Shown here: positions 8,081 through 44,363 of the stretch, one piece after another
How positions within the stretch are numbered: the stretch's first letter is position 1
Layout of the letters: every line of letters starts with the position of its first letter
Origin: Halopenitus persicus
GTDB lineage: Archaea; Halobacteriota; Halobacteria; Halobacteriales; Haloferacaceae
Direction of reading: 5' to 3'
Assembly (NCBI RefSeq): GCF_002355635.1
Contig: NZ_AP017558.1
Coordinates: forward strand, 1,798,001-1,862,000
DNA length: 64,000 nucleotides
Notes under the pieces: model-generated
Seen by the model: only the letters and a program-made list of their open reading frames with translations
Databases searched by the model: none
What the model was told of the DNA's origin: nothing
Made by a program: the position numbers and the translations under genes

Positions 8081-8153
8081 AGTCCATTGGGGTAGTGGCC
8101 AATCCTGTTGCCTTCTGGGGGCAACGACCCTGGTTCGAATCCAGGATGGACTA
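8081..8153 (+). tRNA. tRNA-Gln (anticodon CUG)
   Basis: 73-nt cloverleaf. Acceptor AGTCCAT (8081-8087) pairs with ATGGACT (8146-8152), discriminator A. Anticodon stem TTGCC/GGCAA holds the loop TTCTGGG with anticodon CTG; T-arm CCTGG-TTCGAAT-CCAGG. A TATA-like CATAACC at 8044-8050 lies at promoter distance. CCA is not encoded and no intron is present. The downstream flank (8154-11690) looks acquired. Confidence 0.95.
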
Positions 8154-8180
8154 CTGAATCTTTCTCCATCCCTCTTGGGT

Positions 8181-8233
8181 GAAGTACCTCGGGACAAGCC
8201 CCGAGCCACTCGCCTTGAGTATCTGTAGAGGAT
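8181..8233. mobile_element. possible IS200/IS605-type end relic
   Basis: GAAGTACCTCGGG followed by CCCCGAGCCACTCGCC forms a 6-bp hairpin (8188-8193 with 8200-8205, 6-nt loop). From memory this resembles the subterminal hairpin found beyond tnpB genes in haloarchaeal IS200/IS605 (IS1341-type) elements. No transposase remnant is present, so it would be a solo end. Tentative. Confidence 0.35.
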
Positions 8234-8304
8234 CGTTGAGTGCACCACCCGACGAACGATGTTCCCGATCAGCAAGCGAAGGATTCACCCGTCGCAGATC
8301 CCTA

Positions 8305-8327
8305 CCGTTAGGGGACTGGTTTAACGG
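8305..8327. promoter_or_regulatory. inverted repeat around TATA of APC permease
   Basis: CCGTTA (8305-8310) and TAACGG (8322-8327) are perfect inverted repeats enclosing the probable TATA element (GGTTTAAC), 13 nt before the ATG at 8340. The placement fits a repressor-binding site. Confidence 0.4.
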
Positions 8328-8339
8328 AGACCGACAGTT

Positions 8340-9695
8340 ATGAGTGACGGCCTCGGACTAACGGAAGGCGTCTCGATGGCACTCGGCGGCATGATCGGGG
8401 GCGGTATCTACGCCGTCCTCGGCGTGGTTGCGGGGATAACGATGTCCGCCATTTGGGTCGCATTTCTGGTCGCCGGTGTCGTCGCCATGTGTGCGGGCTA
8501 CTCGTACAACAAGCTCAACAGCCTCACGGACAACCGGGGCGGGTCGGTGACGTTCGTCCAGTGTTACCTCGGTAACTCCACCGTCGCCGGGATGGTCGGC
8601 TGGACGCTTCTGTTCGGCTACATCGGTTCCATGGCGATGTACGCGTTCGCCTTTGGCGAGTTCACGGCCGCATTCGACGTCGTCCCGACGAGCCTTGCCG
8701 GCGTCCCGATTCGACCGTTCGTCTCTGTCGTGGCAGTGGCTGGCTTCGTCGGCTTGAACCTGCTCGGGGCACGGACGACTGGTGCCGTCGAGAACGTCCT
8801 CGTCGCGCTGAAGGTCGGCATCCTCGTGATGTTCGGGATCATCGGCTTGGTGTATGCCTTCGGTTTCAGTGGAGCGCCGTTCGAATACGGCGGCAGCCAG
8901 CTCGGCGGGTTCGGACCCATCATGGCGGCAGCCATATCGTTCGTCGCCTTTCAGGGGTGGCAACTCCTGTATTACGACCAAGAGAGCGTCGAGAATCCCG
9001 TCGAGACCATCCGAAAGGCGGTGTACATCTCGATCCCGGTCGCCGTTGTCATCTATATCCTCGTGGGGATGGTAACGGTGAACCTCGTTCCCCAGGCGCT
9101 TGAGTCCCATCCACACGTCGCGCTCAAGGACGCCGCCTCGATGATGATGGAACCGTACGGACTGGCGCGCGTCGGGTCGGTCGTCCTCGCGCTGTCGGCG
9201 CTGTTCTCGACGGGGAGTGCGATCAACGCGACGCTGTTCTCGTCGGCACACTTCGCCAAGGGGATGCTCAGTGAGGACCTTCTCCCCGATCAGATCGGGG
9301 ACGCGGCCACTGATGGCATCCCTGAGCGAACGGTGGTTGTCCTCGGAGCCATCACCGCGATGTTCACGTGGTACGGGAGCCTCGGGGCCATCACGTCGTT
9401 CGCTTCGCTGTCGTTCATCCTCGTCTTCGGCTCGATGAGCTCTCTCGCGTTCCGCCAACGAGATCACGACGAGGTGAACCCCGTCGTCCCTGCAGTCGGC
9501 ACCGTCGGCGCGTTGGCGTTCTTTCCGTTGATGCTGTACAACCTCTACACTCGCGAGCCGAATACCTTCTATATGGTGCTCGGTATCGCCGCCGCCGTGC
9601 TCGCCGTCGAACTCCTCTACTTCGAGCGCGAGCTCCTCGAGCAAGAGGTCACGGAATTCGAGTCCGACGTCCGCGCTGTCTTTGAGGGTGACTGA
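8340..9695 (+). CDS. APC-superfamily amino acid/polyamine permease
   Basis: 451-aa integral membrane transporter with about 12 hydrophobic segments. The first segment contains ALGGMIGGGIYAVLG, the unwound substrate-binding TM1 typical of the APC superfamily. The family fold and length are right; no C-terminal UspA domain is present, unlike many haloarchaeal relatives. Substrate unknown. Codon use is visibly less GC-extreme than in flanking core genes and the gene lies just behind tRNA-Gln, consistent with horizontal acquisition. The next gene converges on it. Confidence 0.87.
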   Translation: MSDGLGLTEGVSMALGGMIGGGIYAVLGVVAGITMSAIWVAFLVAGVVAMCAGYSYNKLNSLTDNRGGSVTFVQCYLGNSTVAGMVGWTLLFGYIGSMAMYAFAFGEFTAAFDVVPTSLAGVPIRPFVSVVAVAGFVGLNLLGARTTGAVENVLVALKVGILVMFGIIGLVYAFGFSGAPFEYGGSQLGGFGPIMAAAISFVAFQGWQLLYYDQESVENPVETIRKAVYISIPVAVVIYILVGMVTVNLVPQALESHPHVALKDAASMMMEPYGLARVGSVVLALSALFSTGSAINATLFSSAHFAKGMLSEDLLPDQIGDAATDGIPERTVVVLGAITAMFTWYGSLGAITSFASLSFILVFGSMSSLAFRQRDHDEVNPVVPAVGTVGALAFFPLMLYNLYTREPNTFYMVLGIAAAVLAVELLYFERELLEQEVTEFESDVRAVFEGD

Positions 9696-9714
9696 TCCCG
9701 TCTGCCCGTTCTCG

Positions 9715-10101
9715 TCAGGTATCGCGGGTGAGCGCCTCGCGTCGCTGTTCATACTCCTCGTCGGTCAGTTCTCCGCGGGCGTAGGCGAGCCGGAGCTCTT
9801 CGAGTGCTTCGTCCGAGTCACTCGCATCCCCAGTAATCGCGCGATGGATGAGGTACCCACCACCGACGAGGGCGGCGAGGAACAGGAGCTGCATCACGAT
9901 GCTGACGATGAACATCCAGCCGGGCAGCGTCCCGTCGCCCCACATATGACCGCCCCACATATGACCGCCCCACATCCCGCCCATCATCGGTCCGAATCCC
10001 ATCATCCCGAATCCCATAAAGAACAACGGGAGAATGACGACGACCCCGATGATAACGAGGAGGAGCGTGACGAGTCGTGTATCGTCCATTTGTGTCGGCA
10101 T
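9715..10101 (-). CDS. Met/His-rich SHOCT-domain membrane protein
   Basis: 128 aa. Hydrophobic segment (residues about 9-27), then a Met/Gly/His/Trp stretch (MMGGMWGGHMWGGHMWG, near residues 39-55, with duplicated GGHMW), a second membrane segment (about 62-87) and a C-terminal SHOCT helix pair (LEELRLAYARGELTDEEYEQ). The loop chemistry suggests binding of a soft metal such as Cu(I) outside the membrane; that is inference. It lies between the APC permease and the YHS permease. A relative with the same design is at 32019-32414. Confidence 0.78.
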   Translation of the reverse strand: MPTQMDDTRLVTLLLVIIGVVVILPLFFMGFGMMGFGPMMGGMWGGHMWGGHMWGDGTLPGWMFIVSIVMQLLFLAALVGGGYLIHRAITGDASDSDEALEELRLAYARGELTDEEYEQRREALTRDT

Positions 10102-10132
10102 GGCGTGTTCCCTCCGTGAGTTTGGGTCTCAA

Positions 10133-10227
10133 GTACTACTACGTACCGACTATTCAATGCGGTTGTGCCTTCACCCGGAAATTTTTCCAGAAATTTTATT
10201 TTGAATCTAATTTCACAAGGGATTCAA
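10133..10227. promoter_or_regulatory. AT-rich divergent promoter region with inverted repeats
   Basis: The region between the SHOCT gene and the YHS permease is far more AT-rich than its surroundings. It holds GTAC-TACTAC-GTAC (10133-10146), GGAAA-TT-TTTCC (10178-10189), a TATA candidate TTTTATT (10194-10200), and TTGAATC (10201-10207) paired with GATTCAA (10221-10227). The last repeat spans the space from TATA to the predicted start site, the classic place for a repressor. Confidence 0.55.
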
Positions 10228-10280
10228 GGAGCATCATCTGAAGGAAAACTGCAAAAGATGATCCCTTTGAACTGATACCT

Positions 10281-11666
10281 ATGGTGGCGACGATGAGTAA
10301 TGGTCTCCTCGAAGCACTACGCATCGGTGTCGGCTTCCTGTGGACGGCGGCGTGGGCGATCATTATGGGACTCACGGTCACGAGCCTCGTCCAGGTCTAC
10401 GTCTCCAAGGACCGAATGGCTGAGGTCCTGGGCGACGGTGATCTTAGCGGGGTCACCAAAGCGACCGTTTTCGGAGCGGCGAGCAGCGGTTGCAGTTTCG
10501 GGGCCGTCGCAATCGGGAAGGGGCTGTTCAAGAAGGGGGCGCACGCGGTGAACTTTCTCGCGTTTATGTTCGCGTCGACGAACCTCATCGTCGAACTCGG
10601 GTTGATGATTCTGATCCTGCTGGGGTGGGAGTTTCTGCTTGCCGAACTGCTCGGCGGTCTGATCCTCATCGCTGTGATGGCCGTCATCGTCCACCTGACG
10701 CTTCCGGAGAACCTCTTCGACGAGGTACGAGAGACGCTCAACGAGCACGATCACGAGGCGGGCGTTACCGAGGACCCGACTTGTGGAATGGAAGGCACAG
10801 ACGAGTACACCCTCACGACTGACGGCGGCGAGACGCTGGAGTTCTGCTCTGCGGGGTGTATGGAGACGTACCTGCAGGAGTCATCCAGCCGGGGTGGCTG
10901 GCGCGACGAGTTGCTGTCGTGGGGTGGCTGGTACAAGGTCGGGAACCAGTACCGAAAGGAGTGGTCGATGATCTGGAAGGACGTCGTCGCCGGTTTCCTC
11001 ATCTCGGGATTCGTCATCGTCTTCGTCCCGCAGTGGGTCTGGAACACCCTGTTCATTCAGGGTGACGGCCTGCTCGTGACGGCCGAGAACGCCATTATGG
11101 GCGTCGCCATCGCCGTCATCAGCTTCGTTGGAAGTATGGGTAACGTCCCGTTCGCCGTCGCGCTCTGGGGCGGCGGCATCAGCTTCGCCGGCGTCATCGC
11201 GTTCGTCTACGCCGACCTCATCACCGTGCCCGTGTTGAACGTCTATCGGAAGTACTACGGCTGGAAGGTGATGCTGTACATCCTCGGCGTCTTCTTCGTG
11301 ACGATGGCCTTCACGGGCTTTCTTATGGAGCTCCTATTCGACGCCTTCGGAATCGTCCCGAATCTGGCTGGTGGCGAGACGGCGACCGAACGGGCGTACT
11401 TCAAACTCAACTACACGTTCTATCTCAACCTCATCGCGTTCGCGCTTTCCGGGTTCCTGCTGTACGTCTATCGTCGCGGCCTTGGCGCGCCCGGCCAGTA
11501 CCGCGATCCCGTCTGTGGCATGCGGACCGACGACGGCGAGCCGTCGGCGACGCACGACGGTGAGACGTATTATTTCTGCTCGCAGACCTGCAAACAGACC
11601 TTTGAGGAGGCCCCCGACGACTACGCCACTGGACATCCGATGGAGATGGCGAACCACGACCACTGA
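10281..11666 (+). CDS. PF03773-type permease with two YHS metal-binding domains
   Basis: 461 aa. Two blocks of membrane helices of the DUF318/ArsP-like permease type (GVTKATVFGAASSGCSFGAV in the first half; GNVPFAVALWGGGISFAG in the second) are separated by a YHS domain (DPTCGMEGTD...EFCSAGCMETY, residues about 166-195). A second YHS domain (DPVCGMRTDDG...YYFCSQTCKQTF) sits at the C-terminus before HPMEMANHDH. YHS/TRASH Cys pairs bind metals, so a heavy-metal (Cu, Ag, As or similar) efflux or handling role is likely; the ion is not known. ATG at 10293 is an alternative start. Confidence 0.85.
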   Translation: MVATMSNGLLEALRIGVGFLWTAAWAIIMGLTVTSLVQVYVSKDRMAEVLGDGDLSGVTKATVFGAASSGCSFGAVAIGKGLFKKGAHAVNFLAFMFASTNLIVELGLMILILLGWEFLLAELLGGLILIAVMAVIVHLTLPENLFDEVRETLNEHDHEAGVTEDPTCGMEGTDEYTLTTDGGETLEFCSAGCMETYLQESSSRGGWRDELLSWGGWYKVGNQYRKEWSMIWKDVVAGFLISGFVIVFVPQWVWNTLFIQGDGLLVTAENAIMGVAIAVISFVGSMGNVPFAVALWGGGISFAGVIAFVYADLITVPVLNVYRKYYGWKVMLYILGVFFVTMAFTGFLMELLFDAFGIVPNLAGGETATERAYFKLNYTFYLNLIAFALSGFLLYVYRRGLGAPGQYRDPVCGMRTDDGEPSATHDGETYYFCSQTCKQTFEEAPDDYATGHPMEMANHDH

Positions 11667-11722
11667 CGGACCCCACCGGCAGTCCATTCATCGGAAGCCG
11701 CACGCGTCCCACGGAACGGAAG

Positions 11723-41138: not shown

Positions 41139-42287
41139 TCACCGCTCGTCGATCGGGACGAACTCGACGTCCTTCCGCCCGGTGTACCGGGCTCGCGGGC
41201 GGATCAGCCGGTTGTCGGTCTGGTACTCGAGGACGTGGGCGATCCAGCCGCCGGCCCGCGCCATCGCGAAGATGGGCGTGTACATGTCCGTCGGGATCCC
41301 CAGGTGGTCGTAGACGGAGCCGGAGTAGAAGTCGACGTTGGGCGCGATCCCCTCCTCGAGGAGCCCCTGGTCGGCGAGATACTCCTCGATGGCCGTCGTG
41401 TAGTCGAGCCACTTCGTGTCGTCGTTCGACGCCGAGAGGTCACGAAGCCGCTGCTCGAGGATCTCGGCTCGCGGATCCTTCACCCGGTAGACGCGGTGGC
41501 CGTACCCCGGGATGCGCCGTCCATCCTCGCGGGCGGCCGTCGCCCACTCGACGGGGTCGGTCCCGCTCGCGTCGATCTCCTCGAGCATCTCCATGACGTC
41601 CTCGTTGGCGCCGCCGTGGAGCGGTCCCGAGAGGGCACCGATCCCGCCGATGACCGACGAGTAGATGTCGGCCATCGTCGAGGCGATGACCATCGAAGCG
41701 AACGTCGAGGCGTTGAGCCCGTGGTCGGCGTGCAGCGTCAACGCCATGTCGAAGGTCTCCTCGGCGACGTCGTCCGGCCGCGCGCCGGTCAGCATGTACA
41801 GGAAGTTTCCGGCGTAGCCGAGCTCGTCGTCCGGGTCGAGCGGCTCCTCGCCCCGCCGGACGCGGTCGAAGGCGGCGAGGATCGTCGGGATCTTCGCGGT
41901 GATGCGCCGGCCCTGGCGCCGGGTGGCCGCGAGGTCCTCGGCATCGGCGTCCGCCTCGGGGTCGTAGGTCGGAAGCATCGAGACCGCCGTTCGCAGCGCG
42001 TCCATGGGATCGGCGCCGGACCGGGCGAGGTCCCCGACCGCAGCGAGCACGTCGTCGTCGACGGAGCGCTCCGCGGCGAGGTTCCCGGCGAACGTCTCCA
42101 GCTCGGCGCGCGTCGGTAGCTCGCCGTGCCACAGGAGATACAGCACCTCCTCGTAGCTGGCCTGCGTCGCCAGGTCCTCGATGGCGTAGCCGCGGTATCC
42201 GAGCTTGCCGACGTCCCCGTCGATGTAGCTCAGCTCGGATTCGGCGACGAGAACGCCCTCCAAACCACGCTTCAGCTCGTTTGACAT
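41139..42287 (-). CDS. citZ: citrate synthase
   Basis: 382-aa citrate synthase, condensing acetyl-CoA and oxaloacetate. Catalytic residues in GPLHGGANEDVMEML (His), RIPGYGHRVYRVKDPRA (His) and IAPNVDFYSGSVYDHLG (Asp). N-terminal KRGLEGVLVAESELSYIDGD is typical for archaeal and Gram-positive enzymes. A 2-methylcitrate synthase activity cannot be excluded. A TATA-like T-run (around 42312-42320) precedes the start. Confidence 0.93.
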   Translation of the reverse strand: MSNELKRGLEGVLVAESELSYIDGDVGKLGYRGYAIEDLATQASYEEVLYLLWHGELPTRAELETFAGNLAAERSVDDDVLAAVGDLARSGADPMDALRTAVSMLPTYDPEADADAEDLAATRRQGRRITAKIPTILAAFDRVRRGEEPLDPDDELGYAGNFLYMLTGARPDDVAEETFDMALTLHADHGLNASTFASMVIASTMADIYSSVIGGIGALSGPLHGGANEDVMEMLEEIDASGTDPVEWATAAREDGRRIPGYGHRVYRVKDPRAEILEQRLRDLSASNDDTKWLDYTTAIEEYLADQGLLEEGIAPNVDFYSGSVYDHLGIPTDMYTPIFAMARAGGWIAHVLEYQTDNRLIRPRARYTGRKDVEFVPIDER

Positions 42288-42458
42288 ATGCGGACCCTTC
42301 CCGTTAGCCGGAAAAAAGCGTTGCCGTTTCGGAGACGTTCGTGACGTCGATCGTCGAACGTCCTCACGACGTCCCCGCGCCGTCCGGGGACGACACCGAG
42401 CGACCGAACGGTTCGTTCAGCCCGATGAGAACGCTTCCATCCGGCGAGGACGCTCGGA

Positions 42459-44363
42459 TCAGCCCCGTGCGGGGACGACCGAGATCGTGCGCTTTCGGTC
42501 GATCGCGTCCTCGAGCTCCTCGGCGATCGCCGAACCCCGAGAGACCTGGATCTCGCCGCCTCGTCCGACGGTTGCGGTGAAGAGGTACTCGTCCTCCGCG
42601 CGCACCTCCACCGTCTCGCCGACGTCCTCCTCGACGGGGATCACGACGTGCCGTGAGGTGATCTCCGGCTGGACGACCGCGCCCCGGTCGCCGCCCATCG
42701 CCCCGGCCCCGCCCGCGCCGGTAGCCGTCCCCGATCCGGTTCCGGACCCGCCGGCACCGTCGCCGGTCGGGGTCGGCCGTTCGTCGTGGGTCCGGACGTC
42801 GATGTCGATGCCGAGGCGGTTCTCGATGTCGGAGATCCGGCCGCCGCCCTTCCCGATCACGTAGGAGATGTCGTCCTCCTCGACGTAGACGATCGCGGTG
42901 TCGCGTCCCTGCAGCTCCACGTCGACGTGGCCCCGGGCGACCGACCGTATCTCGCGTTCGATCTCCTGTTTGGCGATCCGCGAGACGCCGCTTTCGGCCC
43001 CGTCCTCGCCCTCGGCCCCGATCGGCACCGTGACCACCTGGCGGTTGAACGTGTAGATCTCGTAGTCGGCGCGGCCGGTCTCGAAGTCCCGAACCCGGAT
43101 GACCGGACGCGCGAGGTCCTCCGCGGTGAGTCCCTCGGGAACCTTCACCTCGGTGTCGACGTCGTAGACCGTGTGCACTCTTCCGGCCTCGATGTAGACG
43201 ACGGTATCGACGATCTGGGGGATCATCCCGAGTTCGACGCGCCCGACGAGCCGCTGGAGCGCGTCGATGGCGCGGGAGGCGTGGACGACGCCGACCATCC
43301 CGACGCCGGCCATCCGCATGTCCGAGAAGACCTCGAAGTCGGCGGTCTTCCGGACCTCGTCGTAGATCGTGTAGTCGGGTCGGACGAGCAGCAGCGAGTC
43401 CGCGGTGTTCGCCATATCGCCGCCGAGAGCGCCGTACTGGGTGATCTCCGGACCGACCTGGAGGTCCCGCGGCTTCTCCATCGTCTTGACCGCGTAGTCG
43501 CTGTCGTTGAGGAACTCCGCGACCGCCTGTGCGAACGTCGACTTCCCGGCACCCGGCGAGCCGGAGATGAGAACCCCTCGTTTCGACTCGAGGAAGCGCT
43601 CGCGAAGCTCGTCGGCGAACTCGTAATCGTCGAGCTCGGTCTTGGCGATCGGCCGGACCGCGGTGATCTCGATGCCGTCCGCGAAGGGCGGCCGGGCGAC
43701 GGCGATCCGGTAGTTCCGGTACTGGACGATGTCCATTCCCTCCTCGGAGAGCTCGACGAAGCCGTCGTTCGACCCCCGTGCGAGGTTGACGATCGCGGTC
43801 GCCCACTCGCCCATCCGATCCTCGCTCGTGGGCTCCTCCTCGATGACCTCGTAGCGCATCTCCCCGAGGGTTCCGCGTTTGGCCTTCGGCCTGGTGCCGG
43901 CCTTCAGGTGGACCGACATCGTCTCCTCGGTGAAGTAGTCGGCTATCGGCAGCTCCTCGACGGAGCCCCGGGTGACCGGCTCGACGTACTCCACGTCGAT
44001 CCCCTTCGCCCGCGCGACCTCGGCCTGGACGACGTCGCTGGTCAGCAGCGTCCCGTCGTGGTCCTCCGCGACGTCCCGGATGATCGCGTCGACGTCGCCC
44101 TCGCTGGCGGCCCGCGTCTCGGTGGCGCTCGGGCGTCGGCCGACGTACGACAGCGAGACCGTCCCCTCGTCGGCGAGCTCGGCGAGTCGCTGGAGCTCGG
44201 AGAGACCGTCCCAGCCGGGCTCGTGGCCGTCGTTCGCCTGCGACTCCAGCTCGCCGACCACGGCCTCCGGGACGACGACGGTCGCCCCCTCGTAGGTCCC
44301 GTCCGCGACGCGTTCGGACACGCGGCCGTCGATGACCGCACTGGTGTCCGGTACAACGTTCAT
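42459..44363 (-). CDS. pina: PINA-type PIN/AAA ATPase with KH domain
   Basis: 634 aa. N-terminal PIN domain (VVPDTSAVIDGRVSERVADG; LLTSDVVQAEVA) with conserved acidic residues; central hexameric secretion-type ATPase (Walker A ISGSPGAGKSTFA, residues about 264-276; Walker B-like SLLLVRPDYTIYDEVRKTAD); C-terminal KH-type domain (YVIGKGGGRISDIENRLGI) and a Gly/Ala-rich linker. In Sulfolobus, PINA promotes Holliday junction branch migration and cooperates with Hel308/Hjm and Hjc. TATA-like GGTATAAG complement at 44385-44392. Confidence 0.9.
   Translation of the reverse strand: MNVVPDTSAVIDGRVSERVADGTYEGATVVVPEAVVGELESQANDGHEPGWDGLSELQRLAELADEGTVSLSYVGRRPSATETRAASEGDVDAIIRDVAEDHDGTLLTSDVVQAEVARAKGIDVEYVEPVTRGSVEELPIADYFTEETMSVHLKAGTRPKAKRGTLGEMRYEVIEEEPTSEDRMGEWATAIVNLARGSNDGFVELSEEGMDIVQYRNYRIAVARPPFADGIEITAVRPIAKTELDDYEFADELRERFLESKRGVLISGSPGAGKSTFAQAVAEFLNDSDYAVKTMEKPRDLQVGPEITQYGALGGDMANTADSLLLVRPDYTIYDEVRKTADFEVFSDMRMAGVGMVGVVHASRAIDALQRLVGRVELGMIPQIVDTVVYIEAGRVHTVYDVDTEVKVPEGLTAEDLARPVIRVRDFETGRADYEIYTFNRQVVTVPIGAEGEDGAESGVSRIAKQEIEREIRSVARGHVDVELQGRDTAIVYVEEDDISYVIGKGGGRISDIENRLGIDIDVRTHDERPTPTGDGAGGSGTGSGTATGAGGAGAMGGDRGAVVQPEITSRHVVIPVEEDVGETVEVRAEDEYLFTATVGRGGEIQVSRGSAIAEELEDAIDRKRTISVVPARG

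Follow-up and report, generated by a model that had tools for sequence, protein, structure and literature searches.

The nearest described counterparts of the haloarchaeal permease considered here are the SO_0444 family, whose Shewanella oneidensis member the cells require to grow with ZnSO4 or CuCl2 (according to the part of PMC3219624 drawn on here) and whose Nitratiruptor member is induced by cadmium and copper (likewise a part of PMC10092412), and the methylarsenite permease ArsP of Campylobacter jejuni, an efflux protein for a thiophilic substrate (PMC6205960, in part); PF03773, the Pfam family of our permease, carries the name ‘ArsP_1’. As Campylobacter ArsP exports trivalent organoarsenicals, the substrate of a given member is not readable from the PF03773 family.

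The second ingredient is the YHS domain, which has been described as a copper module in the adenylyl cyclase of M. phlei; the sections of that paper drawn on here (PMC4626032) propose an Asp-Cys-Cys-Cys set of metal ligands by analogy with the cadmium site of ribosomal protein L24e, name toluene-4-hydroxylase as holding a YHS domain that is metal-free in its crystal, and state that, as of 2015, copper binding by the YHS/TRASH domains of transporters was undemonstrated. A haloarchaeal permease-YHS/TRASH fusion, Halovivax ruber AGB15007.1, already stands as a printed alignment row in the same work (Fig 1B legend), the available portion of which does not discuss it as a transport system; the related Halovivax asiaticus (locus L088) has the two-YHS form described below. 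Heavy-metal P-type ATPases with N-terminal YHS domains, such as those of Rhizobium (two domains in L046), also place this module on a metal transporter, and the Rhizobium ATPase matches listed are 51–59% identical to the C-terminal YHS of our permease; L046, though, is an ATP-driven P-type pump, whereas the permease yields no E1-E2 ATPase domain in a Pfam scan at E <= 1. Within the open-licence PMC literature, the haloarchaeal two-YHS permease was not found in the titles or abstract openings listed, and we found no article joining ArsP, ‘YHS domain’ and permease, or ‘YHS domain’ and haloarchaea; the term ‘YHS’ is absent from the text of a review of haloarchaeal metal resistance (PMC3600143).

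Our window, meaning the whole stretch of DNA that was analysed, covers 64,000 nucleotides of Halopenitus persicus (contig NZ_AP017558.1, positions 1,798,001 to 1,862,000), and the features that matter here are as follows, in window coordinates.

8081–8154, plus strand: tRNA-Gln (anticodon ctg), which bounds the insert on its left
8156–11690, no strand assigned: insert of ~3.5 kb (amino acid permease, SHOCT protein, two-YHS permease), missing at the collinear site of sister genome G060; right edge accurate to +/- ~15 bases
8340–9695, plus strand: amino acid permease (PF13520) inside the insert, with no evident metal tie
9715–10101, minus strand: divergent SHOCT protein, 128 aa, with two hydrophobic segments (by eye) around a Met/His-rich stretch (ORF list, Pfam)
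10102–10280, no strand assigned: intergenic region common to the divergent SHOCT and permease genes
10245–10264, plus strand: AAAACTGCAAAAGATGATCC, a short stretch ahead of the permease start codon, alike in many orthologous loci (likeness judged by eye in an alignment)
10281–11666, plus strand: two-YHS permease coding sequence, ATG start, 461 aa (ORF list, Pfam)
10308–11330, plus strand: PF03773 ArsP_1 permease domain, residues 10–350, split by the internal YHS (Pfam, structure model)
10767–10880, plus strand: internal YHS, residues ~163–200, with D165, C168, C189 and C193 (sub-cut-off Pfam match, ligand pattern)
11499–11630, plus strand: C-terminal YHS, residues ~407–450, with D409, C412, C433 and C437 (Pfam, ligand pattern, structural match)
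11631–11663, plus strand: His/Met-containing C-terminal tail with three His (ORF translation)

The first-pass annotation had described a permease with one YHS domain between its membrane halves, another at its C-terminus and a His-containing end, and this description holds. The PF03773 match spans almost the full model (profile positions 3–293 of 294; E 7.6e-57, 193.1 bits, cut-off 32.3), the C-terminal YHS scanned alone scores well above the PF04945 cut-off of 30.3 (E 1.5e-12, 47.7 bits), and the protein ends in GHPMEMANHDH. The internal YHS scanned alone falls below that same cut-off (E 0.0017, 18.8 bits), and in the full-length protein PF04945 finds two stretches at a permissive threshold of E 1 and one at E 0.01; the D-x2-C...C-x3-C pattern is nonetheless kept in both domains. 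A chance match for the internal copy is unlikely, because both patterns are found in 26/26 relatives at least 80% identical in the 78-row alignment, and in 30/30 loci kept from a class-wide genome search, window locus included. As the ‘two-YHS’ label is itself defined by the ligand pattern, the 26/26 and 30/30 counts serve as the label-independent check; the alignment samples no relatives between 45 and 80% identity.

Conservation among the two-YHS rows is highest in the membrane core (0.94), followed by the internal YHS (0.90), the C-terminal YHS (0.81) and the His tail (0.51), and all 78 aligned rows keep Cys71, part of an SSxCS motif located where a helix is predicted to break. Comparison with the paralogue in the same genome gives dN 0.042 and dS 0.505 (ratio 0.08), by which computation the gene is under purifying selection. 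We rejected a one-off fusion or sequencing artefact, given that ratio and the class-wide matches listed, each of them no less than 81% identical over 446 or more of the 461 residues; a stop codon lies in one of these listed matches.

Against the characterised metal families the protein lies far under the membership cut-offs and hence is not a member: the SO_0444 family Cu/Zn efflux model NF033936 is homologous over residues 22–381 (E 1.2e-19, 70.7 bits, equivalog cut-off 300), in a match that, unlike our two-YHS permease, has no YHS part, and the SaoE efflux transporter model NF040736 gives 54.5 bits against a cut-off of 325. ArsP, compared by description rather than by sequence, differs in gene context as sampled. 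The protein is a variant, in its domain architecture, of an established permease family.

Permease matches at E <= 1e-20 occur in 219 of 391 genomes of the class Halobacteria, own genome included (the 391 being an even draw from a larger group), although for many of the 219 even the best match is a weaker, unclassified one (about E 1e-80 or weaker); the class-wide matches listed, the window itself aside, are 81–93% identical to the permease. A search of 72,556 plasmid records returned 174 matches, 57 of them at least 60% identical, and H. persicus itself carries two copies, the second (92% identical) at 41392–42774 of a 138-kb contig, where it too has a divergent SHOCT neighbour. By these computations the two-YHS permease has spread horizontally among haloarchaea, often on plasmids.

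In the window, the gene sits in a tract of lower GC (0.52–0.63 across ~8.0–11.7 kb, against 0.68–0.73 around it), and sister genome G060 is collinear on both flanks but lacks window positions 8156 to ~11690, while carrying a SHOCT-permease pair elsewhere (permease 91%, SHOCT 86% identical). The empty site is known from this one sister genome: G097 was set aside as a second witness, as what it has that best matches the right-hand neighbour gene is a paralogue (72%) placed in a different setting. The choice between a gain here and a loss in G060 depends on the lowered GC, on relatives being carried by plasmids and on the edge falling at a tRNA. The insert behind tRNA-Gln could be a small mobile element or its remnant; a 10-base match to the 5' edge of the tRNA (GCAGTCCATT) lies at its right edge (BLAST E 0.058, possibly chance).

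Relatives were also sampled beyond the haloarchaea. The species-genome scan gave at least 596 stretches, 579 of them encoding relatives, and the 80 best, which represent 79 distinct loci, were retained; 78 proteins including that of the window were aligned, L107 (no frame) and L086 (a 192-aa frame) being omitted. By ligand pattern, 27 rows have the internal and C-terminal YHS together, eight the internal one only, six a single and two a tandem C-terminal YHS, and 35 none, with one of the last group (L055) counted as internal-YHS in the locus tallies below because its three internal cysteines are kept; Pfam itself sees a YHS in 44/78 proteins at E <= 0.01. As sampled, the layouts occur as follows: internal plus C-terminal in haloarchaea, internal only mainly in haloarchaea, and C-terminal, single or tandem, in actinobacteria and one Dormiibacterota MAG. 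The tandem pairs are found at L059:5953-7368 (actinobacterial) and L123:5953-7443 (the Dormiibacterota MAG). Separately, a permease of the internal-YHS layout at L047:1993-3201 shares 63% identity with the haloarchaeal (Haladaptatus) type; its contig is assigned to a Bradymonadaceae MAG, which reflects either transfer to a bacterium or a binning error.

The two-YHS rows form one haloarchaeal clade (SH-aLRT 100 in a quick tree without bootstrap). That tree also hinted that two lineages of haloarchaea had gained the internal YHS separately, an idea we dropped since the AU test does not reject a single clade (p 0.46); nor does it reject a clade uniting every carrier of a C-terminal YHS (p 0.257). 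The first-pass annotation had reckoned that a widespread architecture with a known non-metal substrate would speak against a metal role: the arrangement is indeed widespread in haloarchaea, being found in 27 of the 78 rows as one clade, but it is not known to have a non-metal substrate.

The genomic company of the permease is informative. We tallied 26 named two-YHS loci, window excluded, over up to 6 kb per side (some shorter), and found a P-type ATPase at 18 of them, where ~0.03 would be expected per 13 kb from the seven E1-E2 ATPase genes of the 3.1-Mb own genome (from eight matches, a pair of which share a frame). One or more of five metal markers stand at 19/26 loci and none at 7/26, with no P-type ATPase at 8/26; HMA proteins are at 12, DUF302 at six, plastocyanin at four (counted at a stricter cut of 1e-20, because its tail cross-matches SHOCT proteins) and TRASH-AsnC at three. 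Four ATPase-bearing loci (L057, L058, L060 and L061) are close copies of one island, so the number of independent counts is smaller. Loci of other layouts have an ATPase in 8/34 (YHS-less), 2/9 (internal only) and 1/8 (C-terminal only) cases, figures obtained with haloarchaeal queries throughout, such that bacterial neighbours may be under-counted.

A family census of the neighbours (192 ORFs, 23 loci), which omits the three near copies of L061 and ORFs shorter than 115 aa or not within 4.5 kb, gave E1-E2 ATPase (15, with the HAD hydrolase part) and SHOCT (14) as the commonest families, and also HMA (5) and two each of multicopper oxidase, plastocyanin, DUF302 and TRASH_HVO_1752_C. A generic ArsR-fold HTH model matches two of the ORFs, and no arsenic-specific transporter or enzyme family is among the 25 commonest of each census half (of 72 and 77 families). 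In three of five annotated plasmid islands the permease has P-type ATPases, HMA proteins and an integrase close by, and in two it does not; at one of the 26 loci (L079) and at a plasmid locus (L036) its neighbours are instead an MBL-fold gene and an MFS gene, and L037 has neither. Some islands further hold an amidohydrolase/deaminase-like gene between a regulator gene and the permease (L035:6206-7672, L061:4200-5663), 99–100% identical across several genera.

Among the membrane motifs seen in the ATPases next to the permease are CPH, CPC and CPG, of which CPC and CPH mark copper-type pumps. Three of these ATPases were scored against NCBIfam subfamily models, and all pass both the copper and the cadmium cut-offs: those with CPH and CPC score higher with the copper-translocating model (618.6 and 545.3, cut-off 397), and that with CPG scores higher with the cadmium family (506.3, cut-off 313.5) than with the copper model (410.9). 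CPG ATPases account for nine of 36 motif matches, not mutually independent, and stand together with a separate small HMA protein at L034:3897-5816, L038:13288-15204 and seven other loci. Elsewhere, the surroundings of five hand-picked YHS-less bacterial relatives borne on plasmids hold genes for CusA/CzcA RND, P-type ATPase, PCu(A)C, SCO, DUF411 or DUF305 proteins, and among the plasmid matches listed that cover the C-terminal YHS alone (H85–H100), 13/16 lie in genes annotated as heavy-metal P-type ATPases. Taken from gene content, the neighbourhood of the two-YHS loci points to copper-type metals.

A recurrent partner is the SHOCT protein, with its C-terminal SHOCT domain (E 6.9e-07) and 12 Met and three His, of which eight Met and two His fall in residues 25–62. 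A SHOCT-like protein is encoded at 21/26 named two-YHS loci, within 500 bp upstream of the permease at 13/26 (10 divergent, three on the same strand). It had been proposed that this protein and the permease form a compact metal-resistance system distinct from P-type ATPases; the pairing indeed recurs at those 21 loci, but the separation from ATPases is not supported as put, given the pumps at 18 of the 26 and, in H. persicus itself, a paralogue (L038) whose island also encodes a P-type ATPase and an HMA protein. The phrase is true of the permease protein and not of its genomic company. The window insert itself contains no P-type ATPase; the nearest such domain found is beyond the insert, ~11.4 kb from the permease on its upstream side, and its frame carries a CPC motif. 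As to the shared upstream region, AAAACTGCAAAAGATGATCC recurs (by eye) in many orthologous loci even where other upstream DNA diverges, and is a possible promoter or operator element.

An AF2 model of the permease (pLDDT 85.0, pTM 0.80) shows, on reading its predicted secondary structure by eye, two half-helix hairpins and two broken helices, which suggests a core of two inverted halves linked by the loop that carries the internal YHS; the helix order, also read by eye, predicts both YHS domains on a single side of the membrane. With loop limits set by hand from the model of the window permease, the Lys + Arg fraction is 0.21 on the YHS side against 0.04 opposite, and is higher on that side in 78/78 rows; since Lys/Arg-rich loops mark the cytoplasmic side under the ‘positive-inside’ rule, both YHS domains are probably cytoplasmic.

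In VIA-align comparisons of the membrane core the top 33 rows are all DASS, TRAP, AbgT or CNT transporters (VcINDY, NaCT, SiaQM, YdaH and MtrF among them) at 5–11% identity, the best being NaCT (8uvb; Z 13.6, 295 aligned, rmsd 4.3) and VcINDY (5uld; Z 13.4, 275 aligned, rmsd 4.3), although, as the tool warns, helical models can reach Z values of this size through arrangement alone, and Foldseek finds no match of the model in the PDB at E <= 0.001. The resemblance to ‘elevator-type’ transporters is therefore suggestive only; the known substrates of these families are not metals. The C-terminal YHS aligns with a region of toluene/o-xylene monooxygenase hydroxylases (Z 5.6 to 6.4). By sequence, the permease alone matches one solved structure (E 0.81, a WW-type stretch of a splicing factor), the 78-row profile matches none, and the C-terminal YHS alone has 18 weak matches, with phenol hydroxylase at E 0.07 and many of the others being short Tyr-Tyr-containing stretches of splicing and elongation factors.

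Synthesising these observations, we lean, on balance though not strongly, towards a secondary (non-ATPase) efflux permease for a soft transition metal, with Cu(I) the likeliest candidate and Ag(I) a further possibility, whose YHS domains would capture the metal in the cytosol. On this proposal the gene arrived via mobile haloarchaeal DNA; its two cytosolic YHS domains would bind metal near the inner mouth of the permease, raising the local supply to the core of two inverted halves; and the Met/His-rich stretch of the SHOCT membrane protein would face outward, where it may accept or buffer the exported metal. We infer the metal, the direction of transport and the YHS hand-off, as well as what the SHOCT protein does, how it sits in the membrane and which ion is coupled to transport. 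More tentatively, and with doubt outweighing conviction, we speculate that YHS/TRASH could here play an HMA-like role, as cytosolic ‘traps’ built into an elevator-type permease (one in the loop joining the halves), in series with an outward Met/His SHOCT protein and alongside P-type ATPases on mobile islands.

Direct hand-off from the YHS domains to the transport path, as the first-pass annotation had it, is compatible with the predicted topology, which gating by the same domains would fit equally. That the YHS domains are sensors gating or inhibiting the same metal exporter, and not carriers that hand metal on, is a reading we think unlikely. In its favour, the biochemically studied YHS is a Cu2+-dependent switch of an adenylyl cyclase (the part of PMC4626032 cited above), and the permease core stands without YHS in 34/77 sampled relatives. 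Those YHS-less relatives, however, often have His- or Met-rich tails (by eye), which suits capture somewhat better than sensing.

There is a smaller chance that the exporter serves some other soft, thiophilic substrate, be it trivalent organoarsenicals, as with Campylobacter ArsP, which exports methylarsenite and trivalent roxarsone (PMC6205960, in part), or Zn, Cd or Hg, an option supported by the requirement for SO_0444 under zinc as well as copper (PMC3219624, in part) and by islands whose CPG-motif ATPase exceeds the cadmium-family cut-off; yet the copper-type partners are commoner, and the census of commonest families is free of arsenic-specific transporters and enzymes. We give little credence to transport of something else altogether (a sulfur compound, for instance, or a substrate that is taken up), the YHS domains being structural. 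At some loci MBL-fold, MFS or TauE genes do accompany the permease, and TauE and rhodanese genes accompany a relative in Streptomyces, but such loci are few beside the 19/26 two-YHS loci with at least one metal marker.

Finally, to return to export of a copper-type metal as our preferred reading, the two-YHS permease provides a testable case of YHS metal handling within a transporter, and its AF2 model a structural hypothesis for a permease group for which the 78-member profile finds no solved structure by sequence. If our reading is true, proteins that plasmid records mostly annotate merely as ‘permease’ would constitute a non-ATPase route for copper/silver export, with built-in cytosolic metal traps, that is widespread in haloarchaea.
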